A model generated the notes under the pieces. The model saw nothing but the letters and a program-made list of their open reading frames with translations, was not told the origin of the DNA and ran no database searches. 64,000 bases of DNA from Lysobacter sp. Root76. Lineage in GTDB: Bacteria > Pseudomonadota > Gammaproteobacteria > Xanthomonadales > Xanthomonadaceae. The stretch spans positions 657,288 through 721,287 of the forward strand of contig NZ_LMIK01000001.1 in NCBI RefSeq assembly GCF_001428685.1. Reading direction: 5' to 3'. A program made the position numbers and the translations under genes. Of this stretch, positions 25,137 to 52,468 are shown piece by piece. Numbering within the stretch: position 1 is the first letter of the stretch; each line of letters starts with the position of its first letter.

Positions 25137-26696
25137 TCAGTCGCAGCCGCCCACGCGAACGAAGGCCAGGTCCTCGTAGTCGTAACTGAAGTCGGCCTCT
25201 GGATCGACCTTGGCCATCTTCATGGTTCCCGTATCCGGTGCGGCGCCGAAGTCCAGCCAGGCTTCGGCGTCGACGCTGACGTCGTCCCAGTCGACCAGCC
25301 AGCGCGCGTCGACGCGCTGCACGGTGCCGCTGAGCATCGGCGACTTCCGCGAAACGAAACGCACCCGTGCGCCCTGGGCGCACAGCGAGACTTCGCCGAA
25401 CCAGGGGTCGCCATAGCGGCCGAGCCAGGGGCGCATGGCGTCGGTCGTGGCCGGTTTGCGCGCCGAGGTGTCGGGCGCGCGCTGCGCGGGCGGGGTCGCG
25501 GCGCGCTCGCGCTCCAATGCCTGCGCGTAGTAAGCGACATCGCGGCGCTGTGCGGGCGCGCTGTAGCGCTTGACCAGCACCTGGTTCAGCACCGTCCGCG
25601 CTTCCTCGGCCTCGCCGTTGATCAGGACCACGAAGCCGACGTCGCGCTCCGGCAGCATGGTTACCACCGAGTACATGCCCATCAGGGTGCCGGTGTGCGA
25701 GACCTTGAAAGTGCCGTCGACGTCGGCCAGGCGCCAGCCGTAGCCATAGGCGCTGTAATGACTGCCGTCCCAATCGCGCTGGCGCTGCGAGACCGGCATC
25801 GACATCTGCGCCGACCATAGCGCGCGGCGCTGTTCTGCCGACAGCCAGGGCGCGGCGGCGTTGTCAGGGCGCAACCAGGTGCGGACCCAAGTCAGCATGT
25901 CGTCCAGACTGCAGCGCACGCCGCCGGCCGCGGCCATGGTGGTATTGGCGACGACGGCGCCGTCCTCGCGCACCGGAAGGTTGCGGTCGCCTTCGCGCCG
26001 GTGCGGCTGGGCGACGTTGCCGACGCTGTCGCGATTCCACTCGCCGATCCGGCAGCGCTGCAGCCCCAGCGGCTCGAATACCTCGCGCTGCAGCAGGATT
26101 TCGTAGGGTGCGCCGCCCGCCGCGGCCGCGACTTCGCCGGCGACGATGTACATCAGGTTGTCGTAGTCGTAGCGCGAGCGGAAGCTGTGCACCGGCTTGA
26201 GATAGCGCAGGCCGTGGATCACGTCGGCGCGGCTGAAGCTGTTGGGCTCGGGCCACAGCATCAGGTCGCCGGCGCCCGCGCGCAGACCGCTGTCGTGGAT
26301 CAGCAGGTCGCGCACCTGCATCTCGCGCGTGACCCAGTCGTCGTACATGCGGAACTGCGGCAAGTGCTTGGTGACCGGGTCGTCCCAGCGCAGCTTGCCG
26401 GCGTCGACCAGGCGCGCGAGCAGTGCGGTGGTCATGGACTTGCTGTTGGAAGCGATCTTGAACAGGGTCTCGGGCGTGACCGGTTCACCGCTGCCGGCGA
26501 CCAGCTCGCCCACGCCGCGCCGGTACACAACCTCGCCGTGCTCGATCACACCGATCGCGAGCCCGGGCAATCGGTAGCGCGCGACCACCTCGTCGACGAT
26601 GGCATCGAGCTCGGGCCGCGACGCCGTCGCCGTCTGCGCGAAAGCGGGGGTCGCGAAGCCGACCGCCGCAACCAGAAGCCACCCAATACGTTTCAT
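25137..26696 (-). CDS. secreted serine hydrolase, beta-lactamase/DD-peptidase-like
   Basis: A 519-aa protein with a signal peptide (ending VGFATPAFA). The penicillin-binding-protein-type hydrolase domain runs from about residue 25 to 370: SNSKSMTTALLARL (S-x-x-K), YDYDNLMYIVAGEV (Y-x-N) and VSHTGTLMGMYS as the third element (H-T-G). All three catalytic motifs are intact. The roughly 120-residue C-terminal extension has the lipocalin-like beta pattern seen in D-aminopeptidase/DUF3471-type proteins. The ATG at 26696 overlaps the lysA-like stop by four bases. The coupling to a diaminopimelate enzyme suggests a D-amino-acid or peptidoglycan peptide substrate, which is inference. Confidence 0.88.
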   Translation of the reverse strand: MKRIGWLLVAAVGFATPAFAQTATASRPELDAIVDEVVARYRLPGLAIGVIEHGEVVYRRGVGELVAGSGEPVTPETLFKIASNSKSMTTALLARLVDAGKLRWDDPVTKHLPQFRMYDDWVTREMQVRDLLIHDSGLRAGAGDLMLWPEPNSFSRADVIHGLRYLKPVHSFRSRYDYDNLMYIVAGEVAAAAGGAPYEILLQREVFEPLGLQRCRIGEWNRDSVGNVAQPHRREGDRNLPVREDGAVVANTTMAAAGGVRCSLDDMLTWVRTWLRPDNAAAPWLSAEQRRALWSAQMSMPVSQRQRDWDGSHYSAYGYGWRLADVDGTFKVSHTGTLMGMYSVVTMLPERDVGFVVLINGEAEEARTVLNQVLVKRYSAPAQRRDVAYYAQALERERAATPPAQRAPDTSARKPATTDAMRPWLGRYGDPWFGEVSLCAQGARVRFVSRKSPMLSGTVQRVDARWLVDWDDVSVDAEAWLDFGAAPDTGTMKMAKVDPEADFSYDYEDLAFVRVGGCD

Positions 26697-27946
26697 GCGG
26701 TCAGCCACTCCTGCGCCGGGCGCTCGTCGGCGATCATGGCATCGAAATCCTGGCGTTGCCGCACCACCGCATAGCGGCCGCGGTCGAGCATGACCTCGGC
26801 GGCCAGCGGCCGCGAATTGTAGGTCGAAGCCATGGCCGCGCCGTAAGCGCCGGCGCCCGCGATCGCGATCAGGTCGCCGGCCCGGCAGGCCGGCATTCGC
26901 CGCTGCACCGCGAAGGTATCGCCGGTTTCGCAGACCGGTCCGACCACGTCGTAGGCGACCGACTCGGCTGCGCGACCGTGCAGGGGCAGGATGTCGTGCC
27001 AGGCGTCGTACAGCGCCGGCCGCTGCAAATCGTTCATCGCCGCGTCGACGATCAGGAAATCGCGCTGCTGGCCGGGCTTGATCCGGATTACCCGGGTCAG
27101 CAGCAGCCCGGCCTCGGCGACCAGGTAACGACCGGGCTCCAGGATCAAGGTGCCGGCGAATCCCGAGAAGATCTCGCGCAGCATGGCTGCGTACTCGCCG
27201 GCGGTCAGCGGCGGATCCTGATCCTGCCGGTAACGCACTCCGAGACCGCCGCCGACGTCGATACAGGCCAGGGCGTGGCCATGCCCGGCCAGCTCTCGAG
27301 CGAACGCCGCCACGCGCTGTAGGGCCAGCCGGAACGGCTCCAGGCTCAGGATCTGCGAACCGATATGCGCGTGCAGGCCATCGAGGCGGACGTTCGCGTA
27401 CTGCGCGGAGTCGGCGAACCAACTCCGGGCCTCTTCGATGGACACTCCGAACTTGTTCTCCGACTTTCCGGTGGAGATCTTGGCGTGGGTGCCCGCATCC
27501 ACGTCCGGATTGATGCGGACCGAGGCGCGGGCGATCGCGCCCCGGCCGGCCGCGACGCGCTGCATGGTTTGCAGTTCGTCGCGGGATTCGACATTGAAGC
27601 GCCAAACGCCGGCGTCCAAGGCCTCGGCGATCTCGTCGGCGGTCTTGCCCACGCCCGAGAACACGATGCGCTCTGCCGAAATGCCGGCCCGCAACGCTCG
27701 TCTGAGCTCGCCGGCCGACACGATATCCGCGCCGACGCCCTGCTCGGCCATCAGCTGCAGGATGGCGAGATTGGAATTGGCTTTGACTGCGTAGCAGATG
27801 CGCGCGTCCAGCCCCAGTAGTGCCGCTTGCAGGCCCTGAACACGCTCGCGGATCGCAGTGGCGGAATACACGTAGCAAGGCGTGGCGATCTGCTCGGCCA
27901 GAGCCCGCAGATCGACGCCACCGAAAACAGCATATTCTTCGATCAT
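26693..27946 (-). CDS. lysA: diaminopimelate decarboxylase (PLP fold III)
   Basis: A 417-aa enzyme converting meso-diaminopimelate to L-lysine and CO2. The PLP lysine is in CYAVKANSNLAIL near residue 53. SGVGKTADEI, GLHAHIGSQI, CIDVGGGLGVRY, EPGRYLVAEAG (PLP phosphate contact), GPVCETGDTF (substrate Cys-Glu) and GAYGAAMASTYNSRP follow in LysA order. Length is typical. It is coupled to a secreted serine hydrolase downstream and lies next to an Oar-like receptor, not among lysine biosynthesis genes. This may therefore be a catabolic copy acting on diaminopimelate released from peptidoglycan, or simply the housekeeping gene. Confidence 0.92.
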   Translation of the reverse strand: MIEEYAVFGGVDLRALAEQIATPCYVYSATAIRERVQGLQAALLGLDARICYAVKANSNLAILQLMAEQGVGADIVSAGELRRALRAGISAERIVFSGVGKTADEIAEALDAGVWRFNVESRDELQTMQRVAAGRGAIARASVRINPDVDAGTHAKISTGKSENKFGVSIEEARSWFADSAQYANVRLDGLHAHIGSQILSLEPFRLALQRVAAFARELAGHGHALACIDVGGGLGVRYRQDQDPPLTAGEYAAMLREIFSGFAGTLILEPGRYLVAEAGLLLTRVIRIKPGQQRDFLIVDAAMNDLQRPALYDAWHDILPLHGRAAESVAYDVVGPVCETGDTFAVQRRMPACRAGDLIAIAGAGAYGAAMASTYNSRPLAAEVMLDRGRYAVVRQRQDFDAMIADERPAQEWLTA

Positions 27947-27981
27947 TCGGCGCCTGGATCGGGTCTGACGATTTACCCGCC

Positions 27982-28011
27982 AAAAGAGGCGGACTGCGCC
28001 TGCAGTCCGCC
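27982..28011 (-). terminator. rho-independent terminator of the Oar-like receptor gene
   Basis: A perfect 10-bp stem (GGCGGACTGC with GCAGTCCGCC, 4-nt loop) followed on the minus strand by TCTTTTGG. It starts just after the stop at 28019 and ends before the lysA-like start, so lysA needs its own promoter or readthrough. Confidence 0.85.
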
Positions 28012-28018
28012 GAGGGGG

Positions 28019-30970
28019 TTAGAACGCAACCGAGAGAATGAACTGGACGTAGCGTGGCGATTGATAGTCCGTTCCGTCGCCGAAGAACGGATTCGGAGTG
28101 CCGATGCTGTTCTGCGCCTCGCGCACCTCGTTCACCTCGGTCACTCGCTGCTCGTTGGTCAAGTTATAGACGGCCAACTTGGCATTGAGTTTGGCCCGGC
28201 CGAAGGTCGCGTTGTAGGACACGCTGGCGCCCAGGGAATAGGTCCAGGGCAGCCGATCGTAAGCGCCGCGGCGAGACAGCCGATAGACGCGCTCGGATGG
28301 GGCGAAGTCTTCCGAGCAGTTCCTCTCGCAGATGTAGTAGCTGAGAAACTCCGTGGCGTCGTAGGGATTGCCGGTACCGAACTCGCTGACCGGACGTCCG
28401 GACTGCACGTCCAGGGTCGCACCGACCGACCAATGGTCGTCGAACGCATACGCGCCTCGGAACTTGAATTGATGGCGGTGATCGTTCGGCAGAAAGCCGT
28501 AGCTGCCAATCTCGACGAAGGGATTGTCGAAAGCCTCGGTACGACCGCTATCGGAGAAATCGGTGTCCGAGTTGACCGGGCCTTCGGCATTGCCCTTGCT
28601 GTAAGACAGCGTATACGAAGCATTGAATGCCCACTTCTCGTCCCAGGCGCGGTCGATCATGAACTCCAGGGCGCGATAGGTGCGCTTGGCTTTGCCCCAG
28701 CCGCGCTGGCCGACCAGATTGCCGTCATCGTCGTACAAAGCCCAGCCTTCCTTCGAAGTGTCGATGGTGACGAAGGCATCGTTCACACCGTCGCAGGTCG
28801 GATCGGTGTCGGTGAAGAAGGTCAGATTCTTGCCGGGATTGCCCATCACGAAAGTATCGATCTCGCAATGGCCGTTGTGGGTGATCTGCATGTCATCGAT
28901 GGCTTCGTGCAGCCGCCGATATATGCCGCGCACGCCCCAGGACCAATTGTCCCCGAACATCGACTGGAACCCGAGTATCACCTCGTCCTGATAGACCGGA
29001 TCCATATCCCTGTCGACTTCGCCGCTCAGGTCGCCGACCTGGCCGTTGCCCTGCGAGTCGTCCACCGCACCGATCTGCGGGCCCAGGATCGGATCAGGAT
29101 AGACCTGGCCGGTGGCCGGGTTGGTGAAGGTGCCAAAGCCGTTGAATTCGTAAAAGGTGCGCGCATCCAGGAACGGTCCGGCCTGCTTGATGTTGATGAC
29201 GTTGGCCACCGGCAGGTAGTAGCGGCCCACATTGCCGTACAGCTTGGTGCGGCCGTCGCCGTTGACGTCCCAGGAAAACCCGAAACGTGGGGCGACCATG
29301 TCGTCCATCTTGATGTAGCTGCGTCCGTCGGCGTCCTTGTTGTCGAAAGCCTCCCAACGCACACCCAGGTTGAGCACCAGGTTGGGGGTAACCGACCAGT
29401 TGTCTTCGATGTAATAGGCTTCGTTCTCGGTTTCGAACGTACCCTGGTTGGCAACTTGGCGCGTACGTACGTAGGCATCTAACCCGTCGCGCACGCGAAC
29501 GCCGTTTACGCGTCGACTGAGAGGTACGTTGCTGACCTCGTAGCGCAGGCCATTACCTGGGTAGTGACTGGAATAGTCCGACGTGTTGTTCTCGTGATCC
29601 GCGCCGAAGCGCAGGTAGTGATTGCCCAGCGTCCACTCGAAGTCCAGGCGCATGGCTTTGCGCTTGTCGTTTCGGTCAATCACCGCGGTATTGCTGGAGC
29701 AGCCGATGAAACTGCTCCCTACACGGCGGTCCTGAACGAGATTGCAGGCGGCGTCGTTCAGGCTACTGACTGAAGCAGCCCGTTCGTTCTCGCCGTACAT
29801 TGCCTTCATCGAAAGGTCGTTGGTCAAGTAACCCGTGTAGGTAAGCGCCCAGTTGTCGCCGCCGTTCTTGGTAAATGTTCGATTCTCGCGACCCGAAGTG
29901 CGTTTACCGGTGATCGGATCGAACACATAGTTGTCCTGGACCGTTTCGCTCTTGTCGGAGAACGCGAGCAGCTCCAGCAAGTTCTTGTCGTTGATCTGCC
30001 AGTCCAGCTTGGCGCCCCAGAAATCGTTGTTCCCGCTGTCGATGAACAGGTTCCTGCCGCCGTCGTCGGTGCTCTGGCCGTCGAGATCGCGCTTTTCGTA
30101 AATGCCGAAGAAGAAAAGACGGTCCTGAACCAGCGCGCCCGAACCCCATGCCGCGTAGTTGTTCTGTTCGTTTTCGTCGTACTTGGCGACGCGTCCTGGG
30201 TGATTCTTCGCATCCGATTGCGCCAGATTGTCGAACAGCAGATCGACACCGCCGTGGAATTCGTTGGAACCCTTGCGGGTCACGGCGTTGATCACACCGC
30301 CGGTGGTGCGCCCGAACTCGACCGAATAGCCGCCGGTCTTGACCTGGAATTCCTGGAGGAAGGAGAACGGCATCGAGGAGAAGCCGACCCGGTTGTAGAA
30401 GTCCGTGACGTTCAGACCGTTGACGTAGACCGAATTCTCGGCCACGGACGAACCACCGAACGACACACCGCCGAACTCACCGCGGTTTACACCGGGAGCC
30501 AAGGTCGCAACGTCAGTGATGTCCCGCGGCACAGGCAGTCGCGCCATTTCCTCACGGGTAACGTTGGTCGCCGACTCCGTCGAGGACACGTCCACCGGAC
30601 TGATCCCGCGCGTCCCCACGACCTGCACCGCCGCAAGGTCGGTCGCGGCTTGCGAACCCGCATTCACGTTGGTCGTCGTACCCAGCAGAACTCTCACCGG
30701 CGTAGGCTCGCTCGCCGCGCCGCCGACGCTGGTCTGCAAGGTGTACTGCCCCACCGGCAGGAACGGGAAGCGGTAGTTGCCCTGTTCGTCGGCCTTGACC
30801 GTGCGGGTGAAGCCGGTGTCCGGGCTGCGGATCGTGACTTCGGCGCCGGGCGTGGTACGGCCGGCCAGCGAGCCGTCGTTGTTGGCCGCCAGCGCGCTCA
30901 TGGACATCGAACCGAAGCAGAGCCCCATCGCGATGCAGAGCGCGGTCTTCCTCATCGTTGTTGCGCGCAT
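28019..30970 (-). CDS. Oar-like TonB-dependent receptor with N-terminal carboxypeptidase-regulatory domain
   Basis: A 983-aa outer-membrane protein. A signal peptide (ending MSMSALA) is followed by a carboxypeptidase-regulatory-like domain, residues 30-95 (GSLAGRTTPGAEVTIRSPDTGFTR, YRFPFLPVGQYTLQ). The plug (DLAAVQVVGTRGISPVDVSSTES, FQVKTGGYSVEFGRTTGGVINAV) and a large barrel ending in Phe (YVQFILSVAF) complete it. This is the Oar/TonB layout common in Lysobacter and Xanthomonas for uptake of large or peptide ligands. AGGGGAAA precedes the ATG at 30970; a second ATG at 30955 is possible. It is close to a transglutaminase-like gene upstream (39 bp) and has its own terminator, so the two may form an operon. 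Confidence 0.93.
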   Translation of the reverse strand: MRATTMRKTALCIAMGLCFGSMSMSALAANNDGSLAGRTTPGAEVTIRSPDTGFTRTVKADEQGNYRFPFLPVGQYTLQTSVGGAASEPTPVRVLLGTTTNVNAGSQAATDLAAVQVVGTRGISPVDVSSTESATNVTREEMARLPVPRDITDVATLAPGVNRGEFGGVSFGGSSVAENSVYVNGLNVTDFYNRVGFSSMPFSFLQEFQVKTGGYSVEFGRTTGGVINAVTRKGSNEFHGGVDLLFDNLAQSDAKNHPGRVAKYDENEQNNYAAWGSGALVQDRLFFFGIYEKRDLDGQSTDDGGRNLFIDSGNNDFWGAKLDWQINDKNLLELLAFSDKSETVQDNYVFDPITGKRTSGRENRTFTKNGGDNWALTYTGYLTNDLSMKAMYGENERAASVSSLNDAACNLVQDRRVGSSFIGCSSNTAVIDRNDKRKAMRLDFEWTLGNHYLRFGADHENNTSDYSSHYPGNGLRYEVSNVPLSRRVNGVRVRDGLDAYVRTRQVANQGTFETENEAYYIEDNWSVTPNLVLNLGVRWEAFDNKDADGRSYIKMDDMVAPRFGFSWDVNGDGRTKLYGNVGRYYLPVANVINIKQAGPFLDARTFYEFNGFGTFTNPATGQVYPDPILGPQIGAVDDSQGNGQVGDLSGEVDRDMDPVYQDEVILGFQSMFGDNWSWGVRGIYRRLHEAIDDMQITHNGHCEIDTFVMGNPGKNLTFFTDTDPTCDGVNDAFVTIDTSKEGWALYDDDGNLVGQRGWGKAKRTYRALEFMIDRAWDEKWAFNASYTLSYSKGNAEGPVNSDTDFSDSGRTEAFDNPFVEIGSYGFLPNDHRHQFKFRGAYAFDDHWSVGATLDVQSGRPVSEFGTGNPYDATEFLSYYICERNCSEDFAPSERVYRLSRRGAYDRLPWTYSLGASVSYNATFGRAKLNAKLAVYNLTNEQRVTEVNEVREAQNSIGTPNPFFGDGTDYQSPRYVQFILSVAF

Positions 30971-31009
30971 GTTTCCATTTCCCCTAGAGCATGGCCGTGT
31001 GAGCTGCCG

Positions 31010-32479
31010 CTACGGCGCGTGGCCGGGCAGCGGCAGTACTTGTGCTTTGAAGCGGTAATCCCACCGGTCGAAGTAGAGGTTGCCCCCCGCCCACTCCACT
31101 TCGCCGCGCTGCGAATCCACGGTTTCCGATCGGAAGTGCCGTTTCGCCGGGACCAGGTCGGTCCCGTAGTCGTCGTTGAACGCGATGCGGTAGGCATCGA
31201 GTCCGCCGAGATAGAACCACTCGACGCCGGGATCCTTGGCGTCTTGGAACCGTCCCGTGGTGACGTCCATCGGGACCCAGCCGTAGGGCGCCAGGTACAG
31301 CCAGCCCCAGTCGTGCAGGTTGTCGTAGTCGCCGTCGGAATAGACCATGCCCGACTGCCAGCGCGCGGGAATACCGTTCAAACGCAGCAGGGCCATCAGC
31401 AGCAAGGTCTGCTGGCCGCAATCGGCGTGGCCGGCGTGCAGGGCGTAGTCGCTGATGTTGGACAGCGTCGAGTACTCGCGCGCGCCGGCCCAGGGAATGC
31501 GGTCGACGGCGGCGTACAGCTTCTGCGCGATGCGCGCCGGATTGGTCTCGTCGCCGACGACTTCGCGCGAATAGCGGCGCAGCGCGTCGGTGTAGACGAT
31601 GTGCGGCGCGCGCTCGCCCAGGTAGGGCGCGAGGTCGGGACGGTCGCCCAGCGCCTGGACCCGGTCCGGGTCGATGCGATGGACCTGGCCGTAGACGGTG
31701 AGTTCGTAGCTGATCGAAAACGTAGTCGGCTGTCCGGCTTTCGCGGCCTGCTCCAGGTAGACCGTGCGCTGCTGGGTGGATTCGGGCGCGATCCGGTGCG
31801 TGGCGGGCGTGCTGGCCAGAAAGACGAGGCCCTCCTGCTGGCCCGGCCGCAGGCGCGGGTACGGGATCCACGCGCGCAGGGTTTCGCCGGCCGGCACCGC
31901 ATCGGCATCGACGACGATGGACTGGGTCACGCGCACCCGGCGCGGGGCGACGCTGGTCTTGCCGCTCGCGCGCGCCTCGCGCAGCGCTTCGTCGTGATAG
32001 GCGTTGGCGCTTTCCATCGGCCCGCTGCTGGGCTTGCGCGGCGGACGCCGGCGCGCATCGGCGACGGGATCGAGCAGGAACAGGTTGGAGACGGCGCGGC
32101 TGAAGTAATACGGCTGGCCGTCGATGACCAGGTGTTCGAGCAGGTTCGCGCGCTTCCAGGCCACGAACTCGTCGTCGCGCAGATCGGGCACCAGTTCGCC
32201 GAGCTTGCGCCGGGCGTCGGCTTCGGTCAGCGGGAAGTCGAGACGGATGCGGCGCATGCGCTCGCGCTGGAATTCCAGGGCCGCGCGCTGGTCCGCGCTC
32301 AAGCCCGGCTGCGCAAGCGCGGCGTCGATCGCCAGGCCGGCGTCGCGGAAATGACCGGCGTCGATCATGGCGACGATGTCGCTGGGACCGCGGTCGTAGC
32401 CGGCCCAGACCGCGGGCAGCGCGAGCATCAGCCCGGCCAGGCACAGGCTGCGCGCAGCCCGGCGCCAAGCGCGGGGCAT
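31010..32479 (-). CDS. secreted transglutaminase-like protein
   Basis: A 489-aa protein if the ATG at 32479 is used, which begins a clean signal peptide (RRAARSLCLAGLMLALPAVWA); an ATG at 32527 would add 16 residues, and neither has a good ribosome site. The C-terminal half is a transglutaminase-like domain: HADCGQQTLLLMALLRLNGIPARW with the nucleophile Cys, then LHDWGWLYLAPYGWVPMDV with His and Asp. The N-terminal half is a beta-rich region with a WIPYP segment. Prokaryotic relatives are mostly peptidases or peptidoglycan-linked amidases rather than cross-linkers. It is divergent from the DUF819/NlpC/epimerase operon and shares its control region, which argues for a peptide-utilisation role. 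Confidence 0.85.
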   Translation of the reverse strand: MPRAWRRAARSLCLAGLMLALPAVWAGYDRGPSDIVAMIDAGHFRDAGLAIDAALAQPGLSADQRAALEFQRERMRRIRLDFPLTEADARRKLGELVPDLRDDEFVAWKRANLLEHLVIDGQPYYFSRAVSNLFLLDPVADARRRPPRKPSSGPMESANAYHDEALREARASGKTSVAPRRVRVTQSIVVDADAVPAGETLRAWIPYPRLRPGQQEGLVFLASTPATHRIAPESTQQRTVYLEQAAKAGQPTTFSISYELTVYGQVHRIDPDRVQALGDRPDLAPYLGERAPHIVYTDALRRYSREVVGDETNPARIAQKLYAAVDRIPWAGAREYSTLSNISDYALHAGHADCGQQTLLLMALLRLNGIPARWQSGMVYSDGDYDNLHDWGWLYLAPYGWVPMDVTTGRFQDAKDPGVEWFYLGGLDAYRIAFNDDYGTDLVPAKRHFRSETVDSQRGEVEWAGGNLYFDRWDYRFKAQVLPLPGHAP

Positions 32480-32570
32480 CGCCGAATCGAGCGGAAGCAC
32501 GGAACGTTCCACGTCGCAGCCGACCATCTGAGGACCGAGTCACGGCTGTGTAACATGGCCGGACGGGCTG

Positions 32571-32590
32571 GTCAATAATTTATTCTTGAC
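32571..32590. promoter_or_regulatory. 20-bp imperfect palindrome, candidate RpiR/MurR operator
   Basis: GTCAATAATTTATTCTTGAC has eight of ten symmetric pairs matching. It is AT-rich in a GC-rich genome and covers the -35 hexamer of the promoter at 32586-32614. It lies in the divergent region between the transglutaminase-like gene and the DUF819 operon, which encodes an RpiR-family regulator. The link to that regulator is inference. Confidence 0.6.
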
Positions 32591-32614
32591 AAATTCTCGT
32601 TGTGAAGTATGTAT
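32586..32614 (+). promoter_or_regulatory. sigma-70-type promoter of the muropeptide operon
   Basis: A consensus -35 (TTGACA at 32586-32591), 16 bases, then TATGTA at 32608-32613 as the -10. This places transcription start near 32620, about 40 bases before the DUF819 ATG at 32663, which has a GAGGGGA ribosome site. Confidence 0.6.
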
Positions 32615-32662
32615 TCCCACTGAGCCGGTCGCGATGATCGCCGGCGCGAACGAGGGGACGCG

Positions 32663-33820
32663 ATGATCGAAACGGTCTGGCCTTATCTGGCGGTGGTGCT
32701 GCTGGCGGCCGGGCTGTTTCCGTCGCTGGAGCGGCGCTACGGCTGGCGGCTGTTCTCGGTGCTGCCGCCGATCGTGCTGACCTATCTGCTGGTGACCGCG
32801 CTGGCGGTGGCGGGCCTGTGGCAGAGCACGACGGAGATCGCCGCCGCCCAGCGCCACCTGACCTCGCAGCTGCTGCCGGCGCTGCTGTTCCTGTTGATGG
32901 TCGGCTGCGACCTGCGCGCGATCCTGGCGCTGGGGCCGCGCATGCTGGCGGTATTCGTCTGTGCGATGGCCAGCATCCTGGCCGCGATCGTGCTGGCCTA
33001 CCTGATCTACCGGAACGCCCTGCCCGCCGACGGCTGGAAGATGCTGGCCGCGCTCAGCGCGACCTGGACCGGCGGTTCGGCCAACCTGGTCGCGGTCAAG
33101 CAATCGATCGGCCTGCCCGACAACCTGCTGCCGCCGGTGCTGCTGGCCGACGCGCTGTGCTATTCGGTGTGGGTGGTGCTGCTGTTCTCGGCGGTGCGCT
33201 TCGCGCCCGCGTTCAATCGCTGGACCCGCGCCAACGAGCGCGCGCTGCCGGTCGCGGCCGCTCCGCGCGCGAACAGCGAAGCCGGCGCTGGCGGCGTGCT
33301 GCTGTGGCTGGGCATCGCCCTGCTGGTCGGCAATGGCGCCATGGCGCTGGCCGCTTTGCTACCGACGCAAGGTTTCTTGACCGTCACCGCGTGGACCGTG
33401 CTGATCGCGACCGTCGCCGGGCTGGCACTCGCGCGCACGCCGCTGGCGGCATCGCCGGTGCCGGCGCCGCTGGCCGGCGCGCTGTTGGCTTGCCTGGTCG
33501 CAGTGCTGGCCTCGCAGAGCAACTTCGCCGGAATGTCGGCCGCACCGCTGTTCGTGCTGGTCGGCTTCACCGTGCTGGTGCTGCACGTCGGCCTGTTCGC
33601 GCTGGCGGCGCGGGCGTTCCGTTTCGACCTGTACCTGTGCGGGATCTCTTCGCTGGCCCAGATCGGCGGCATGGCCACCGCACCGGTGCTGGCGGCGACC
33701 TACTCGCGCGCGCTGGTGCCGGCGGCGGTGTTGTTGGCGATGCTGGGCCTGGTGCTGGGCACCGGCATCGGTTTGTTCATGGCCGGCGTGCTGTCCGGCC
33801 TTTCGCCCACGGGAGGCTGA
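32663..33820 (+). CDS. DUF819 family integral membrane protein
   Basis: A 385-aa protein with about 10-11 predicted membrane helices. The DUF819 (YjcL-like) hallmark is LSATWTGGSANLVAVKQSIGLPD near residue 130, with a repeat-like second half (GISSLAQIGGMATAPVLAATYSRALVPAAVLLAMLGLVLG). The inverted-repeat look suggests a transporter. DUF819 genes recur beside dipeptide-epimerase genes, and here it heads an operon with an NlpC/P60 peptidase and an epimerase. I infer it may carry L-Ala-D-Glu or a murein peptide across the inner membrane. Four bases separate it from the next gene. Confidence 0.9.
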   Translation: MIETVWPYLAVVLLAAGLFPSLERRYGWRLFSVLPPIVLTYLLVTALAVAGLWQSTTEIAAAQRHLTSQLLPALLFLLMVGCDLRAILALGPRMLAVFVCAMASILAAIVLAYLIYRNALPADGWKMLAALSATWTGGSANLVAVKQSIGLPDNLLPPVLLADALCYSVWVVLLFSAVRFAPAFNRWTRANERALPVAAAPRANSEAGAGGVLLWLGIALLVGNGAMALAALLPTQGFLTVTAWTVLIATVAGLALARTPLAASPVPAPLAGALLACLVAVLASQSNFAGMSAAPLFVLVGFTVLVLHVGLFALAARAFRFDLYLCGISSLAQIGGMATAPVLAATYSRALVPAAVLLAMLGLVLGTGIGLFMAGVLSGLSPTGG

Positions 33821-33824
33821 TCCG

Positions 33825-35228
33825 ATGCGTCCGCTCCTCGTCCTGCTCGCCGCCGCCGGCCTGTTCGGCGCCGCGCTGCAGCCGCTCGCGGCGGCTCCGC
33901 CCGCTGCGCTCCCCATCCCCGCCCACGGCGTAATCGGCGTGGAGGAACGCCAATTGAATGCGGAATTCTGGATCCAGCGCCAGGCGCGCGCGGATCGCGT
34001 GATATTGAACACAGCCGCGATCGCGGCGCAGAACGCCAAGCTGCGCGAACTGGACGCGTCGGTGCACGATCTGCAGGCCCTGCCGGAAACGGTGACCCGC
34101 GAGCAGATCCGAAGCTGGATAGCGTCGGTGTCGGAGCGCCCGACCCAGGCGCTGTACGACGAGCGCGGCCGGCCCATCGCCAGCGGCGTGCTCGACGATC
34201 TTCAGGACGCGCTCGACCTGGGCGCGATCCCGGAGCGGCAGCCGCTGCGCTACGGCCTGATCGTGCACCGCGCCGATCTGCGCGCGTTTCCGACGCCGCT
34301 GCGCGTGTTCAATTCGCCCGACGATCACGACATCGACCGTTTCCAGGAGAGCGGCCTGTTCCCCGGCGATCCGGTCGCGATCGCCCACGAGAGCCGCGAC
34401 CGCCAGTGGTGGTTCGTGGTCAGCCCGCTGTATACGGCCTGGGTCGAGAAGCGCTACGTCGCCCAGGGCGATGCGGCGGCGGTGTTCGGTTACGGGCAGC
34501 GCACGCCGCAACTGATCGTCACCGGGGCGACCGCGCGCACCGTGTACACGCCGGAGCAGCCGAAGCTGTCGCAGTTGCAGCTCGACATGGGCGTACGCGC
34601 GCCCCTGCTGGCCGACTGGCCGGCCGACCGTCCGGTCAACGGCCAGCATCCCTACACCGCGCACGTGATCGAACTGCCGGTGCGCGGCGACGACGGCCGC
34701 CTGAGCTTCGCGCCGGCGCTGCTGCCCAAGAATCAGGACACCGCCGAGCGCTACCTGCCGCTGACCAAGGCCAACCTGCTGCGCCAGGGTTTCAAGTTCC
34801 TCGGCGAGCGCTACGGCTGGGGCCATTCCTACAACGCGCGCGACTGCAGCGGCTTCGTGTCCGACGTCTACCGCAGCTTCGGAGTGACGCTGCCGCGCAA
34901 TACCCGCGACCAGGCGGTGAGCCCGGCGCTGAACCGTATCGCCTTCGGCGATCGGGACGACCGCGCGGCGCGCATGAAAGCGGTGCGCGAGCTGCAAGTC
35001 GGCGACCTGATCTATATCCCCGGTCACGTGATGATGGTGATCGGCGATCAGCACGGCGAGCCCTACGTGATCCACGACACCACCGGCATCAGCTATCGCG
35101 ACGCCGAGGGCCGCATGGCCCGCGCCCATCTCAACGGGGTATCGGTGTCGCCGCTGACTCCGCTGCTGTTCGACGAGGCGCATAGCTACGTCGACCGCAT
35201 CACCAGCATCCAGCGCATCCGCCCCTGA
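33825..35228 (+). CDS. secreted SH3b-NlpC/P60 endopeptidase
   Basis: A 467-aa protein with a signal peptide (LLVLLAAAGLFGAALQPLAAA). Two SH3b-like regions follow (around residues 140-210 and 215-290, with WWFVVSPLYTAWVEKRYV in the first). The C-terminal NlpC/P60 domain has the nucleophile in YNARDCSGFVSDVYRSFG near 347, the His in YIPGHVMMVIGD near 403 and the third polar site in VIHDTTGI near 420. Enzymes of this layout cut gamma-D-Glu-diaminopimelate bonds in stem peptides, releasing L-Ala-D-Glu, the substrate of the next gene's product. Spacing to neighbours (4 and 33 bp) supports one operon. Confidence 0.92.
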   Translation: MRPLLVLLAAAGLFGAALQPLAAAPPAALPIPAHGVIGVEERQLNAEFWIQRQARADRVILNTAAIAAQNAKLRELDASVHDLQALPETVTREQIRSWIASVSERPTQALYDERGRPIASGVLDDLQDALDLGAIPERQPLRYGLIVHRADLRAFPTPLRVFNSPDDHDIDRFQESGLFPGDPVAIAHESRDRQWWFVVSPLYTAWVEKRYVAQGDAAAVFGYGQRTPQLIVTGATARTVYTPEQPKLSQLQLDMGVRAPLLADWPADRPVNGQHPYTAHVIELPVRGDDGRLSFAPALLPKNQDTAERYLPLTKANLLRQGFKFLGERYGWGHSYNARDCSGFVSDVYRSFGVTLPRNTRDQAVSPALNRIAFGDRDDRAARMKAVRELQVGDLIYIPGHVMMVIGDQHGEPYVIHDTTGISYRDAEGRMARAHLNGVSVSPLTPLLFDEAHSYVDRITSIQRIRP

Positions 35229-35261
35229 GCGCCCCACTACTTACGAAGCGATCGGAGCTCC

Positions 35262-36359
35262 ATGAAAATTACCGATATCCGGTTCGGCATGCTGCGCGTC
35301 CCGCTGAAGACGCCGTTCAAGACCGCGCTGCGCACCGTCGACACGGTCGAGGACATCGTCGTGTCGGTGCATACCGACAGCGGCCAGGTCGGCTACGGCG
35401 AGGCCGCGGCGACCGCGGTGATCACCGGCGACACCCACGGCTCCATCGTCGAGGCGATCCGCAAGTTCATCGCGCCGCGCCTGATCGGCGAGGACATCGC
35501 CGACCTCAACCGCCTGACCCAGCTGATCCAGAGCGCGCTGGAGAAGAACACCAGCGCCAAGGCCGCGGTCGAGATCGCGATCTACGACCTGTGGGGCCAG
35601 CTGTACGGGGCACCGCTGTACAAGATGCTCGGCGGCGGCGACCCGGTCATCGCCACCGACATCACCATCAGCGTCGACTACATCGACAAGATGGTGGCCG
35701 ACTCGATGAGCGCGGTCGAACGCGGCTTCGAATCGCTGAAGATCAAGGTCGGCAAGGACATCGGCGTCGACATCGAGCGGGTCAAGGCGATCTACGCCGC
35801 GGTCGAGGGCCGTGCCCTGCTGCGCCTGGACGCCAATCAGGGCTGGACCGCCAAGCAGGCGGTGTACGCGATCCAGCAACTGGAGGACGCCGGGGTGCGC
35901 CTGGAGCTGGTCGAGCAACCGGTCAAGGCGCAGGACCTTGACGGCATGAAGTACGTGACCGAGCGCGTGCATACTCCGATCATGGCCGACGAGAGCGTGT
36001 TCGGCCCCACCGAGGTCATCGATCTGATCCGCATGCGCGCCGCCGACATCATCAACATAAAGCTGATGAAGACCGGCGGGATCTCCAATGCCATCCGCAT
36101 CGCCGACATCGCCGCGCTGTACGGGGTGGAATGCATGATCGGCTGCATGATCGAGACCAGCATCAGTGTGGCCGCGGCCGTGCACGTGGCGGTGGCCAAG
36201 TCCAACGTCATTACCAAGGTCGATCTGGACGGGCCGTCGCTGTGCGCGTTCAACCCGGTCGACGGCGGGGTGAATTTCAACGAGTCGGAGATCTCGGTCG
36301 CCGATGCGCCCGGCCTGGGCATCCGCGAGATCCGCGGCCTCGAAGCCCTGCCCGGCTGA
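35262..36359 (+). CDS. L-Ala-D/L-Glu (dipeptide) epimerase, enolase superfamily
   Basis: A 365-aa enzyme of the muconate-lactonising subgroup. The catalytic lysine pair is in ESLKIKVGKD (K-x-K). Metal ligands are in LRLDANQGW, LELVEQPV and PIMADESVFG; the second general base is Lys in INIKLMKTGG. C-terminal MIGCMIETSIS is typical of dipeptide epimerases. It would convert L-Ala-D-Glu from murein into L-Ala-L-Glu, which ordinary dipeptidases can cleave. GGAGCTCC precedes the ATG. The upstream endopeptidase and downstream RpiR regulator support this specificity over other epimerases of the group, though related enzymes accept other dipeptides. Confidence 0.92.
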   Translation: MKITDIRFGMLRVPLKTPFKTALRTVDTVEDIVVSVHTDSGQVGYGEAAATAVITGDTHGSIVEAIRKFIAPRLIGEDIADLNRLTQLIQSALEKNTSAKAAVEIAIYDLWGQLYGAPLYKMLGGGDPVIATDITISVDYIDKMVADSMSAVERGFESLKIKVGKDIGVDIERVKAIYAAVEGRALLRLDANQGWTAKQAVYAIQQLEDAGVRLELVEQPVKAQDLDGMKYVTERVHTPIMADESVFGPTEVIDLIRMRAADIINIKLMKTGGISNAIRIADIAALYGVECMIGCMIETSISVAAAVHVAVAKSNVITKVDLDGPSLCAFNPVDGGVNFNESEISVADAPGLGIREIRGLEALPG

Positions 36360-36377
36360 GCCCAGGACCGTCAGGAC

Positions 36378-37229
36378 ATGTCGCCGCTACTCAAAATCCG
36401 CGCCGAGCGCGATCGCATGTCGGCGATCGAGCGCCGCATCGCCGATTTCCTGCTCGACAACGCCCATCTGCTGCGCGACTACTCCTCGCAGCAGCTGGCC
36501 AACGCGCTGGGGATCAGCCAGTCCAGCGTGGTCAAGTTCAGCCAGAAGCTGGGCTTCAAGGGCTACCCGGACCTCAAGTATTCGATCGGCGAAGCGGTCG
36601 CGCGCGGCAACGGCAACGGCGAGGACCACCTGCCGACCGCCGCGGCCGCGGACGATCCGCACACCGCGCTGGCCGAGGACTTGTGGCACCTCAAGGCCCT
36701 GGCCGAGGCCGAGACCCGGCTGATCAATCCGGCCGACCGCATCGACGCGATCGCCGCGGCGATCGAGCAGGCCGGCAAGGTCTACATCATCGGCCTCGGC
36801 GAGGACGGCATCCCGGCGCGCGCGTTCGCGACCCGGCTGTCGATGCTGGGCATCGTCACCGTGCACTACGTCGATGCGATGCTGATGCAGGCCGGCATCT
36901 CCAGCGCCGCGGCCGGCGATGTGCTGCTGGTGTTCTCCGAGCACGGCCGCCAGCCGGCGCTGTGCCAGATCGGCCGGCGCTTCCGCGAGCGCGTGGGCAA
37001 GGTCATCACCGTGACCCGTCACACTCCCAACCCGCTGCGCGCGCATGCCGACGCGGCCCTGGTGGTGTCGGCGCACGACGAGCGCCGGCATATCGAGCCG
37101 CTGCTGTACCAATCGGCGCTGCAGCACCTGCTCGACCTGATCTTCGTGCTGCTGTGCGACGCCAGCGAAGCCCGGCGCCGCCAGCTCGACCTCAACCTCG
37201 AGCGCATGCAGGATCTGCTCGACAGCTGA
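36378..37229 (+). CDS. MurR/RpiR-family transcriptional regulator (HTH + SIS)
   Basis: A 283-aa regulator. The HTH_6 domain at residues 1-77 contains MSAIERRIADFLLDN and SSQQLANALGISQSSVVKFSQKLGFKGYPDLK. A SIS sugar-phosphate domain from about 120 to 250 contains GKVYIIGLGEDGIPARAFATRLSMLG and GDVLLVFSEHGRQPALCQIG. Family members sense phosphosugars such as MurNAc-6-phosphate, which fits a peptidoglycan-recycling operon. The SIS motif GLGEDG departs from the common GxGxS, so the ligand may differ. Likely controls the operon through the palindrome at 32571. Confidence 0.93.
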   Translation: MSPLLKIRAERDRMSAIERRIADFLLDNAHLLRDYSSQQLANALGISQSSVVKFSQKLGFKGYPDLKYSIGEAVARGNGNGEDHLPTAAAADDPHTALAEDLWHLKALAEAETRLINPADRIDAIAAAIEQAGKVYIIGLGEDGIPARAFATRLSMLGIVTVHYVDAMLMQAGISSAAAGDVLLVFSEHGRQPALCQIGRRFRERVGKVITVTRHTPNPLRAHADAALVVSAHDERRHIEPLLYQSALQHLLDLIFVLLCDASEARRRQLDLNLERMQDLLDS

Positions 37230-37247
37230 CCGCCGGGACGAGACCGC

Positions 37248-38009
37248 ATGCGCACCCTGCTCCGCACCGCCCTGCTGATGCCTGCCCTCGCTCTGGCCGC
37301 CTGTGCCGGCATGTCCGCGCCGAGCGCATCGACGCCCTGGGGCAACGCGCGCCAGCTCGTGCTGGTGACCACCGACGGCTGGGACGCGAGCGAGGGCCGC
37401 CTGCGCCGCTACCAACGCGACGGCGGCGGCTGGCGCGAGGTCGGCTCGGCGAGCTCGGTCACGGTCGGGCGTAACGGCAGTGCCTGGGGCCTGGGCCTGC
37501 ATCCCAGCCAGACCGACGGGCCGCAGAAGCGCGAAGGCGACGGCCGCGCGCCGGCCGGCGTGTTCGCGCTCGGCACCGCGTTCGGCTACGGCGCCAGCGC
37601 GGCGACGCCGATGCCCTACCAGGCCATGGGCGCCGACGACTACTGCATCGACGTCAACGCCTCGCCGCTGTACAACCGCATCGTCGATGCCGGCGAGGTC
37701 GGCCAGGCCGCCGTCGCCGAATCCACCGAACCCATGCGCCGGGACCTGCACGCCGGCGGCGACCAGCGCTACCGGCTGGGCTTGGTGATCGATCACAACC
37801 CGCAGCGCGTTCCCGGCGCCGGCAGCTGCATCTTCGCCCACCTGTGGAAGGCACCCGGCGAGCCCACCGCAGGCTGCACCGCGATGGCCGATCCGGCGAT
37901 GGAAGCCCTGCTGGCCTGGCTGCGCCCGCAGCAGCATCCGGTATTCGTGCTGCTGCCGCAGGCGGAACTGCGCCGTCTGCGGCAGGATTGGCATCTGCCG
38001 GCGCCCTGA
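37248..38009 (+). CDS. YkuD-like L,D-transpeptidase/carboxypeptidase lipoprotein
   Basis: A 253-aa protein with a lipobox (LMPALALAACAG, Cys near residue 19), so it is probably anchored in the envelope. The catalytic pattern is HLWKAPGEPTAGCTAM: a His, then a Thr-x-Gly-Cys near residue 206, the L,D-transpeptidase active site of the COG3786 type. GDGRAPAGVFALGTAFGYG is the family glycine-rich strand. It may cut or exchange stem-peptide bonds and so supply substrate to the endopeptidase and epimerase of the same operon. It follows the regulator by 18 bp. Confidence 0.85.
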   Translation: MRTLLRTALLMPALALAACAGMSAPSASTPWGNARQLVLVTTDGWDASEGRLRRYQRDGGGWREVGSASSVTVGRNGSAWGLGLHPSQTDGPQKREGDGRAPAGVFALGTAFGYGASAATPMPYQAMGADDYCIDVNASPLYNRIVDAGEVGQAAVAESTEPMRRDLHAGGDQRYRLGLVIDHNPQRVPGAGSCIFAHLWKAPGEPTAGCTAMADPAMEALLAWLRPQQHPVFVLLPQAELRRLRQDWHLPAP

Positions 38010-38048
38010 GCCGCCCTCCGTCCACCACCACACAGAGCCCCGCCCCGC

Positions 38049-39293
38049 ATGTCGATGACCACCCGCGTCCTGCTCGCGCTGATCGCCGGCGCCGCCGCCG
38101 GCCTGATCCTGGTCGCGCTAGCGCCCGAGGTCGCGCAAAGTACCGCGGCGGTGATGCAGCCGATCGGCAAGCTCTGGCTCAATGCCCTGCAGATGACGGT
38201 AGTGCCGCTGGTGGTGTCGCTGGTGGTGATCGGGGTGACCTCGGCCAGCGATGCGGCGGCCTCCGGACGCACGGCGCGGCGCGCGATCGTGGTCTTCATC
38301 GTGCTGCTGAGCCTGGGCGCCGCCTTCGCCGCGATCGCCGCGCCGGCCCTGCTGTCGCTGCTGCCGCGCGACGAGGCGCTGGTGCAGTCGTTCCGCACCG
38401 CCACGTCGGTACCGACGGCCGCGCCGCCGGCGCTGGGCGACTGGTTGTCGGCGGTGATTCCCAGCAACGTGATCGCGGCCGCCGCGGCCAGCGCGATGCT
38501 GCCGCTGGTGGTGTTCGCGCTGTTCTTCGGTTTCGCCCTGACCCGCATCGATCCGGCCCGGCGCGCGCGCCTGGTCGAACTGTTCCAGGCCATCGCCGAC
38601 ACCATGATCGTGATCGTGCGCTGGCTGCTGTGGATCGCGCCGCTGGGCGTGTTCGCGCTGATGTTCGCGGTCTGCGCCCACGTCGGCGTGGGCATGCTGG
38701 GCGCGGTCGGCTACTACATCGCGCTGCAGTGCACGCTGTATATCTCGGTCACGCTGATGCTGTATCTGGTCGCCGCGGCCTCGGGCACGCCGTTGCGGCG
38801 CTTCGCCGCCGGCGTGCTGCCGGCGCAGACCATCGCCGCCAGCACCCAATCTTCGCTAGCCTCGTTGCCGGCGATGGTGGACAGCGCGCGGATGCGGCTC
38901 GGCTATCCGCTGGAGATCGCTTCATTGGTGCTGCCGATGGCGGTATCGCTGTTCCGCATCACCAGCCCGATCCAGTACATCGGCGTGACCGCGTTCGTGG
39001 CCTGGATCTACGGCATCGACCTGGGCGCGGCGCAACTGGCCGGCTGCGCCGCGCTGGCGGTGGTGATCAGTCTGGGGTCGGTGGGCCTGCCCGGCCAGGT
39101 CAGCTTCATGGCGACCAACATGCCGGTGGTGCAGGCCGCGAGCCTGCCGGTGGAGCCGCTGGGCTTGCTGCTCGCGGTCGACACCCTGCCCGACGTGTTC
39201 GCGACCCTGGGCAACGTCACCGGCGACATCGCCGCGACCGGCGTGGTGGCCGGACGCGAGCGCGCTGCGACGACGGGCGACGGCACGGGCTGA
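38049..39293 (+). CDS. atypical dicarboxylate/amino-acid:cation symporter (DAACS family)
   Basis: A 414-aa membrane protein with the eight-helix plus two-hairpin layout of glutamate transporters: ALQMTVVPLVVSLVVIGV early, STQSSLASLP in hairpin 1, GLPGQVSFMATNMP in hairpin 2 and NVTGD in TM8. The NMDGT sodium/substrate motif of TM7 is replaced by FRITSP, and the TM8 arginine that binds the acidic side chain is replaced by Ala (LPDVFATLGNVTGD against D-x-x-R-T). It therefore probably does not carry glutamate or aspartate in the usual way. A neutral amino acid or small peptide is plausible, given its place at the end of the muropeptide operon. A terminator follows at 39351. Confidence 0.85.
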   Translation: MSMTTRVLLALIAGAAAGLILVALAPEVAQSTAAVMQPIGKLWLNALQMTVVPLVVSLVVIGVTSASDAAASGRTARRAIVVFIVLLSLGAAFAAIAAPALLSLLPRDEALVQSFRTATSVPTAAPPALGDWLSAVIPSNVIAAAAASAMLPLVVFALFFGFALTRIDPARRARLVELFQAIADTMIVIVRWLLWIAPLGVFALMFAVCAHVGVGMLGAVGYYIALQCTLYISVTLMLYLVAAASGTPLRRFAAGVLPAQTIAASTQSSLASLPAMVDSARMRLGYPLEIASLVLPMAVSLFRITSPIQYIGVTAFVAWIYGIDLGAAQLAGCAALAVVISLGSVGLPGQVSFMATNMPVVQAASLPVEPLGLLLAVDTLPDVFATLGNVTGDIAATGVVAGRERAATTGDGTG

Positions 39294-40421: not shown

Positions 40422-40433
40422 CGTCATGCTCCG

Positions 40434-52354: not shown

Positions 52355-52468
52355 GTTTCGAATCCCCAATCCGCCCGGTAACCGCAGGTCGTCGATATGC
52401 ACAGCTTTGGCGCGAACGCAGGCATGGCCGCATCGCGTCAGCGAGTGCGGCGCCCTGCCCTTATCTGA

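Follow-up and report, generated by a model that had tools for sequence, protein, structure and literature searches.

The closest described relatives of the system reported here are the ykfABCD locus of Bacillus subtilis, with YkfA, YkfB and YkfC, and the ykfBC genes of Bacillus cereus. In the available parts of the source, an NlpC/P60 endopeptidase acting between gamma-D-Glu and meso-diaminopimelic acid (mDAP) is found there beside an L-Ala-D-Glu epimerase, and the B. cereus YkfC has a signal peptide, for which cleavage outside the cell followed by import of the dipeptide was proposed (PMC2954226). The same parts describe how Escherichia coli arrives at L-Ala, L-Glu and diaminopimelate (DAP) from the tripeptide by the same chemistry, with MpaA, YcjG and PepD together with AmpG and Mpl (PMC2954226). 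Here we describe a ten-gene cluster at positions 25137-39293 of the window, the whole analysed stretch of 64,000 nucleotides from Lysobacter sp. Root76 (genome size 4.36 Mb). As to its general function, we think it probable that the locus is dedicated to the self-regulated utilisation of peptidoglycan stem peptides. Its chemistry is known, being Ykf-type murein-peptide catabolism, and its arrangement is new, with an outer-membrane receptor of its own and a predicted operator. We found no description of the cluster in the openly licensed literature, and one may exist elsewhere.

All ten genes carry the names given in the original prediction, six of them in one plus-strand run, and the Pfam and NCBIfam matches and the coordinates agree with this. 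The genes form two divergent arms. The left, minus-strand arm encodes the transglutaminase-fold (TGase) protein, the Oar-type receptor, LysA and the serine hydrolase, and the right, plus-strand arm encodes DUF819, NlpC/P60, the epimerase, RpiR, the YkuD-like lipoprotein and the SDF symporter. The features are as follows.

25137-26696, minus strand: serine hydrolase with a signal-like N-terminus and a beta-lactamase/DD-peptidase/D-aminopeptidase fold (PF00144, 2e-64)
26693-27946, minus strand: LysA, diaminopimelate decarboxylase (TIGR01048, 474.7 bits, cut-off 297.9)
28019-30970, minus strand: Oar-type TonB-dependent outer-membrane receptor (CarboxypepD_reg, Plug, OMP beta-barrel)
31010-32527, minus strand: TGase-fold cysteine protein with a signal-like N-terminus (PF01841, 6.7e-15)
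32547-32575, minus strand: predicted promoter of the TGase-Oar side, TTGACC (32575-32570), 17 nt, TACACA (32552-32547)
32571-32590, no strand: predicted RpiR operator GTCAATAATTTATTCTTGAC, a conserved palindrome between the arms
32663-33820, plus strand: DUF819 membrane protein (PF05684, 1.5e-64)
33825-35228, plus strand: NlpC/P60 protein with SH3_6 and a signal-like N-terminus (SH3_6, NLPC_P60)
35262-36359, plus strand: YkfB-like L-Ala-D/L-Glu epimerase without a signal-like N-terminus (best solved relative 1jpm)
36378-37229, plus strand: RpiR-family regulator, HTH_6 and SIS domains (PF01418, PF01380)
37248-38009, plus strand: YkuD-like lipoprotein (PF03734, weak)
38049-39293, plus strand: SDF-family symporter (PF00375, 7.8e-74)

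The assignment to murein rests first on two enzymes. The best solved relative of the epimerase is 1jpm (2.2e-103), which we take to be B. subtilis YkfB. Arg24, Lys160, Lys162, Asp190, Asp243, Lys267, Asp321 and Asp323 are invariant in 15 aligned sequences, and Arg24 and Asp321/Asp323 are kept in a residue-by-residue alignment with 1jpm; we take the lysines to be catalytic, further residues to be metal ligands, and Arg24 and the Asp-x-Asp pair to hold the ends of the substrate. The protein scored below the NCBIfam equivalog cut-offs of NF041118 (257 against 500 bits), named for the Thermotoga type, and of NF011708 (116 against 343), the PRK15129 model. For the NlpC/P60 protein, the best solved relatives are DvLysin (3m1u, 2e-29) and PnpA (6sqx, 1.9e-12). 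Its Cys341, His401 and His417 are conserved. The residues for gamma-D-Glu specificity (Tyr226, Trp228, Asp237, Ser239 and the Cys-His-His triad in BcYkfC numbering) are present as YGW, DCSG, GHV and IHD; they were matched by motif, and are conserved at 95% or more in 79 proteins, with the Ser at 80-95%. Membership of the YkfC subfamily has been tied to Asp256 of BcYkfC, which serves the free L-Ala amine together with Tyr118 in the SH3b domain, as far as the available parts of the source describe it (PMC2954226). At this Asp position, the window protein has Asn359, within PRN, as do at least 95% of the 79 aligned proteins, and the enzyme may therefore act on sugar-bearing muropeptides too. The four-domain enzymes of the DvLysin/PnpA kind consist of an N-terminal c-clip, two SH3b domains and NlpC/P60; SH3_6 and NLPC_P60 were detected in the window protein, and c-clip and a second SH3b were not reported at E<=0.001. 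A hydrophobic stretch was found within the first 45 residues in 73 of 78 orthologues, compared with 7 of 78 for a control stretch, as expected for a protein that is predicted to be exported.

To place the cluster among its relatives, we scanned for the epimerase, which gave at least 573 encoding stretches; all counts out of 80 refer to the best 80 of these. The presence of a gene was scored by tblastn over the whole stretch (about 10 kb per side), with thresholds of E<=1e-10 and 30% coverage, and since 12 of the 80 loci are shorter than 19 kb, the counts are lower bounds. NlpC was found in 78 loci, RpiR in 76 (3 of them distant matches at 34-38%), Oar in 68 (2 of them distant matches at 37-39%) and TGase in 64, followed by YkuD (60), SDF (51), the serine hydrolase (48), LysA (30) and DUF819 (25). 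Relatives also carry M15 D-Ala-D-Ala dipeptidase (36), M19 dipeptidase (20) and N-acetylmuramoyl-L-alanine amidase (13) genes in their stretches, and an LdcA-type carboxypeptidase lies in the cluster stretch of at least one further genome. Inspected by eye, the N-termini of one M15, two M19 and two amidase proteins look exported, the amidases as lipoproteins. The M15, M19 and amidase genes tie the unit to peptidoglycan. The substrate could instead be another gamma-glutamyl or D-amino-acid peptide, given that both the NlpC and the epimerase families include members with other substrates; the D-Ala-D-Ala dipeptidase and amidase genes of related loci, the gamma-D-Glu-mDAP type of the peptidase and the YkfB residues of the epimerase make this highly improbable. 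The proposal of murein-peptide utilisation thus finds good support in sequence, from the epimerase, NlpC, the accessory genes of relatives and a receptor that shares the predicted operator.

The unit is kept as a whole in two loci of the same genus (L035 and L036), where the order and strand of all ten genes are the same. The CitE, SSF, OmpA and 2408-residue genes that flank the cluster in the window had no match in these two stretches, which extend about 1.3 kb to the left of the serine hydrolase and about 4.5 kb to the right, so that the boundary is tested better on the right than on the left. This ten-gene synteny indicates that the unit is more than a chance neighbourhood. The epimerase was present in 32 of 60 genomes searched, the source genome included. 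The cluster was also found in Rhodanobacter, Dyella, Luteibacter, Pseudoxanthomonas and Stenotrophomonas. Six of the 80 loci were placed outside Lysobacterales (Pseudidiomarina, two Lacimicrobium, Alkalimonas, Bowmanella and Kangiella), and another four were without a genus or family name. At the tblastn threshold, NlpC was matched in five of the six, and TGase, YkuD and SDF in none of them. A class-wide search with the NlpC protein matched 4 of 369 genomes at E<=1e-25, the source genome included and all of its own family, indicating that the sequence family is narrow, though the chemistry is wide.

This distribution bears on what the cluster is for. Lysobacter is known as bacteriolytic, and the original prediction had suggested that the locus feeds a predator on the cell wall of its prey. 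The membership of the source genus agrees with a predation module. The cluster is, however, shared by the many other genera listed above, which we do not know as predators, and in two genomes of the same genus (G011 and G012) the epimerase was not matched at E<=1e-60. A distribution across so many genera argues against a function in predation only, and we regard such a module as distinctly unlikely.

We analyzed the region between the two arms in 73 promoter regions, namely the window and 72 of the 80 loci with the divergent gene pair. The first 17 bases of GTCAATAATTTATTCTTGAC, GTCAATAAwTTATkCTT, were found exactly in 58 of the 73, with at most one mismatch in 66 and with at most two in 71. 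The best 5+5 palindrome occurred in 49 regions, compared with 2-4 in five mononucleotide shuffles, and the dyad symmetry of the element is conserved on both sides. At up to three mismatches the element is a single site in the genome, and it appeared in none of 100 shuffles of the window. Among genomes of the family, 60 of 149, the source genome included, contain it at one mismatch or fewer, and a reversed control gave none. In some genomes the element recurs, with a second site upstream of a second receptor (L093, L094 and G520) and additional sites upstream of DUF819 (G464) and of a third receptor type (G515). We then compared sites with the presence of RpiR in 86 loci with RpiR and 12 without, after removing four duplicates (L040, L043, L046 and L053). 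At one mismatch or fewer, the site was present in 78 of the 86 loci with RpiR and in none of the 12 without; at three or fewer, it was present in 85 of the 86.

On the strand of the TGase and Oar genes, TACACA follows TTGAC after 17 nt in 48 of 64 regions and after 18 nt in 2, while 14 have none at 14-20 nt; a generic promoter scan did not list this predicted promoter. The -35 sequence TTGAC lies inside the palindrome, so a bound repressor would cover it. The same spacing would suit an element that is part of the promoter (-35 and UP element) rather than an RpiR operator, as would the A/T-rich sequence just upstream and the matches at three mismatches or fewer in 5 of the 12 loci without RpiR. 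These matches count against an operator function, and the element could in part be such a -35/UP element. With a dyad conserved on both sides, one copy in the whole source genome and the association of close matches with RpiR, we consider it unlikely that the element is only a promoter part, and predict from sequence that the palindrome is the RpiR operator and RpiR a local repressor. The regulator had been named RpiR/MurR. The RpiR half of this name stands with PF01418 and PF01380, and the MurR half does not, as the protein reaches 95.7 bits against the cut-off of 408 for the MurR model PRK15482; by these profiles it is an RpiR-family regulator and not MurR itself.

The receptor differs from the rest of the cluster. 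The Oar gene has 60.4% G+C, compared with 65-74% for the other cluster genes, and the protein shares 63-64% identity with its counterparts in two near relatives, compared with 82-98% for the other cluster proteins. Oar is thus a fast-changing receptor, and in some loci a different TonB-dependent receptor family takes its place. In one genome (G022), an unlinked Oar that is 81% identical to a cluster Oar stands among leucine-degradation-like genes with the palindrome upstream at one mismatch; no Oar was found in the stretch read of the main cluster of this genome (L044). In Myxococcus xanthus, Oar is required for secretion of PopC, according to the available parts of the source (PMC6434023). 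In the cluster, Oar could likewise act as an outer-membrane exporter of the serine hydrolase or the TGase-fold protein, and it is the neighbour of TGase in most of the 80 loci. We think this improbable, as the G022 Oar stands apart from TGase, and the different receptor family in some loci better suits the import of a changing substrate.

We then considered the candidate inner-membrane carriers. The structural model of the DUF819 protein, with a predicted local distance difference test (pLDDT) score of 88.5, matches CitS (5xar; Z 25.2, 357 residues, 4.3 A) and the aspartate:alanine exchanger AspT (8y1x; Z 25.0, 343 residues, 3.9 A), followed by lower matches to the oxaloacetate decarboxylase beta subunit (Z 18.0) and Na+/H+ antiporters (about 13). 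In agreement with this fold, DUF819 is placed in the CPA/AT clan in the available parts of PMC8396727. The model thus presents DUF819 as an elevator-type secondary transporter, and this fits an anionic, amino-acid-like substrate; we propose that it imports L-Ala-D-Glu. The SDF protein lacks the acidic-amino-acid signature, with RITSP and Ala at the positions of NMDGT and Arg in the window protein (52 orthologues aligned). We take the NMDGT motif and the Arg, which would bind the side-chain carboxylate, to be features of the acidic amino-acid symporters GltP and GltPh. Gene associations were tested in the 68 longer loci, with kinship ignored. LysA goes with SDF, which was present in 27 of 29 LysA-positive loci compared with 18 of 39 others, making mDAP a candidate cargo; we propose that SDF imports an amino-acid product, perhaps mDAP. 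DUF819 goes with M19 (18 of 25 loci, compared with 2 of 43 lacking DUF819) and stays away from M15 (2 of 25 compared with 30 of 43). As the loci are related to each other, these associations are suggestive only. An APC permease often takes the position of SDF in relatives: SDF alone was found in 44 of the longer loci, APC alone in 10, both in 1 and neither in 13.

The original prediction had put forward a survey of DUF819 and epimerase neighbourhoods as a check, and this gave no general link. DUF819 was matched in 37 of 398 genomes of a phylum sample (33 over the cut-off), and 28 of 30 phylum loci read with 1.5 kb flanks contained no epimerase, NlpC, M15 or M19. A murein link for the DUF819 family as a whole was rejected on these numbers. 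The exceptions are L204/L225, with NlpC and epimerase, and L215, with M15. In L225, from the same class and another family, DUF819, NlpC, epimerase and YkuD stand in a row. A second locus of this genome (L226) contains a serine hydrolase, M19, another serine hydrolase and a distant epimerase (34%), with a divergent DUF819, and is an independent murein-peptide cluster. A distant epimerase (29%) also lies about 2 kb from DUF819 in L228. No epimerase was found in the longer stretches of L227, which belongs to a closely related DUF819 subgroup, and L229. In Neisseria meningitidis, M15 and DUF819 occur together in 75 of 128 genomes, as given in the available parts of PMC12671195. M15 beside DUF819 here and in L215 suggests a second murein-linked context for DUF819. 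We also observed a variant without a detected NlpC between DUF819 and the epimerase in L230 and L102, which are probably one genome.

The remaining proteins are candidates for trimming the peptides and using their products. The serine hydrolase has the motifs SxxK at 83, YxN at 178 and HTG at 334, conserved in 46 aligned proteins, and would trim D-amino acids from stem peptides. The only other LysA-model match over cut-off in the genome is a fused aspartokinase-DAP decarboxylase (LysC-LysA; 1338.9 bits, cut-off 802). With the cluster LysA as the second one beside this fusion, lysine as a product, as had been suggested, is plausible by gene content, and we propose that the cluster LysA is catabolic, converting mDAP to L-Lys. 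In the TGase protein, whose start may be internal at 32479, Cys370, His405 and Asp421 are invariant in 40 sequences. Its model resembles the putative cysteine protease 3isr (Z 20.5, 258 residues, 3.3 A) and many transglutaminases, and at a lower level pseudomurein endoisopeptidases (Z about 7), a match too weak to name a substrate. The triad and the modelled fold are those of transglutaminase-fold cysteine proteases, and we propose a role as a cell-wall peptidase. Neither this protein nor the YkuD-like one had a sequence match among solved structures. The YkuD domain match is weak (PF03734, 24.3 bits, cut-off 23.4). His198 and Cys210 are in the expected places and invariant in 25 aligned proteins, with the motifs SCIFAH and TxGCTAM; the usual YkuD motif, which we take to be SHGC, reads TAGC in the window protein. 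A lipobox (LAAC), identified by eye, is present in the window protein and missing from some orthologues. The protein is a candidate L,D-carboxypeptidase/transpeptidase.

From the computed gene content, conservation, signal-like N-termini, DUF819 and TGase folds, catalytic residues and conserved element, we infer the substrates, the direction of transport, binding and repression by RpiR, a right-arm promoter and an inducer in the following way. Oar, or another TonB-dependent receptor in some relatives, would bring muropeptides or peptides into the periplasm. There, the exported serine hydrolase and the YkuD-like lipoprotein would trim the D-Ala end and the TGase-fold protein would cut another bond, as exported M15, M19 and AmiD-like enzymes may do in relatives. 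The exported NlpC/P60 enzyme would then separate gamma-D-Glu from mDAP in the periplasm. L-Ala-D-Glu would enter by DUF819 where it is present, and the epimerase would make L-Ala-L-Glu, to be split by housekeeping dipeptidases. The mDAP would enter as well, perhaps by SDF, and LysA would make lysine from it. RpiR, sitting at the palindrome over the -35 box, would keep both arms off until an inducer appears. The full assignment of the carriers and the receptor is tentative, although a real possibility. We give the same tentative weight to the wider proposal of TonB-dependent murein-peptide uptake, a system of which we found no account in the openly licensed literature. In it, muropeptides would be imported by receptors of the Oar type, a distinct subfamily of DUF819 would serve as permease for L-Ala-D-Glu, SDF would take mDAP, and RpiR, as a repressor, would read a murein-derived signal at the palindrome.

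Several observations weigh against this proposal. Each step from stem peptide to products had been said to have a candidate, and this holds in part: the window cluster is without an amidase, a D-Ala-D-Ala dipeptidase and a dipeptidase for L-Ala-L-Glu, while M15, M19 and amidase genes occur within or next to the cluster in relatives. If the NlpC enzyme acts on sugar-bearing muropeptides, it would depend on an amidase from outside the window cluster. In addition, DUF819 is confined to 25 of the 80 loci, and most of its loci in the phylum have no murein neighbour. None of the candidate inner-membrane importers is constant, since some loci, among them those of L. antibioticus (L064) and L. enzymogenes (L076), contain neither DUF819 nor SDF nor APC. 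Finally, the 80 loci were taken from the head of a longer list and are related to each other, which makes the P values of the gene associations optimistic.

The source genome also has the genes of standard recycling elsewhere, with AmpG at 420 bits (cut-off 350) and Mpl at 594.4 (cut-off 388.7). AmpG was called by its specific model, as the MFS_1 profile, with 31 matches, is uninformative for it. The presence of AmpG, Mpl and the fused LysC-LysA elsewhere suggests that the locus is an additional route, facing the periplasm and the outer membrane. Alternatively, the locus could serve to recover peptides from the periplasmic turnover of the cell itself and to remodel its wall, instead of feeding on outside murein, with the receptor recapturing leaked peptides. 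The genera with the cluster have many lifestyles, the peptidase genes encode signal-like N-termini, and own turnover is the steadiest source of such peptides. The existing AmpG and Mpl route, the conserved receptor in the outer membrane, which shares the element and points outward, and the second LysA, which suits catabolism, speak against it, and we see recovery of own peptides as possible but rather unlikely.

Beyond the cluster, the region 21603-24952 encodes an SSF symporter extended at its N-terminus by about 350 residues, whose frame overlaps the gene of a CitE-like lyase by a few bases. To the right, 39423-47660 contains an OmpA-domain protein gene and then the 2408-residue minus-strand frame, with a weak Big_1 match only, which is overlapped by a second very long minus-strand frame (43811-52402). 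At 53439-57148, a 7TMR-DISM histidine kinase adjoins a FecR and LysM protein. Models of defence systems gave no match for the five proteins tried.

How peptidoglycan peptides cross the outer membrane on their way in is, to our knowledge, poorly understood, and no substrate has been assigned to several of the membrane families encoded in loci of this type. For a DUF819 subfamily, an SDF carrier and an Oar clade, the cluster suggests a substrate that can be tested. If true, TonB-dependent murein-peptide uptake would assign a function to DUF819 members, an Oar clade and an RpiR clade at once, and the predicted single-site operator makes the question of the inducer a simple reporter experiment. 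Its occurrence in many Lysobacterales makes the cluster relevant to murein signals in this order and to the scavenging of nutrients from dead cells.

Polysaccharide utilisation loci unite a receptor, an inner-membrane carrier, catabolic enzymes and a local regulator in one unit, and the cluster described here has the same plan. So do the TonB-dependent N-acetylglucosamine (GlcNAc) clusters of Caulobacter, as described in the available parts of the source (PMC13046382). Unlike these systems, the locus would act on the peptide and not on the sugar part, and its ten genes include no SusD partner or phosphotransferase system (PTS). PnpA of Photobacterium, which is secreted, and DvLysin, the closest solved relatives of the NlpC enzyme, have the gamma-D-Glu-mDAP specificity that we predict for it, and EcgA belongs to the same four-domain group; for these three, the available parts of the article mention no neighbourhood with an epimerase, receptor or operator (PMC7860986). 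The E. coli route, in the parts of PMC2954226 cited above, is cytoplasmic after uptake by AmpG, whereas cleavage by the locus is predicted to be periplasmic, with AmpG and Mpl encoded separately. Compared with the Ykf systems, which use Dpp/Opp and have the Asp256 that the NlpC enzyme lacks, the locus is Gram-negative, has DUF819, SDF or APC carriers, and adds a TonB-dependent receptor, a TGase-fold protein, a YkuD-like lipoprotein, RpiR and the palindrome.

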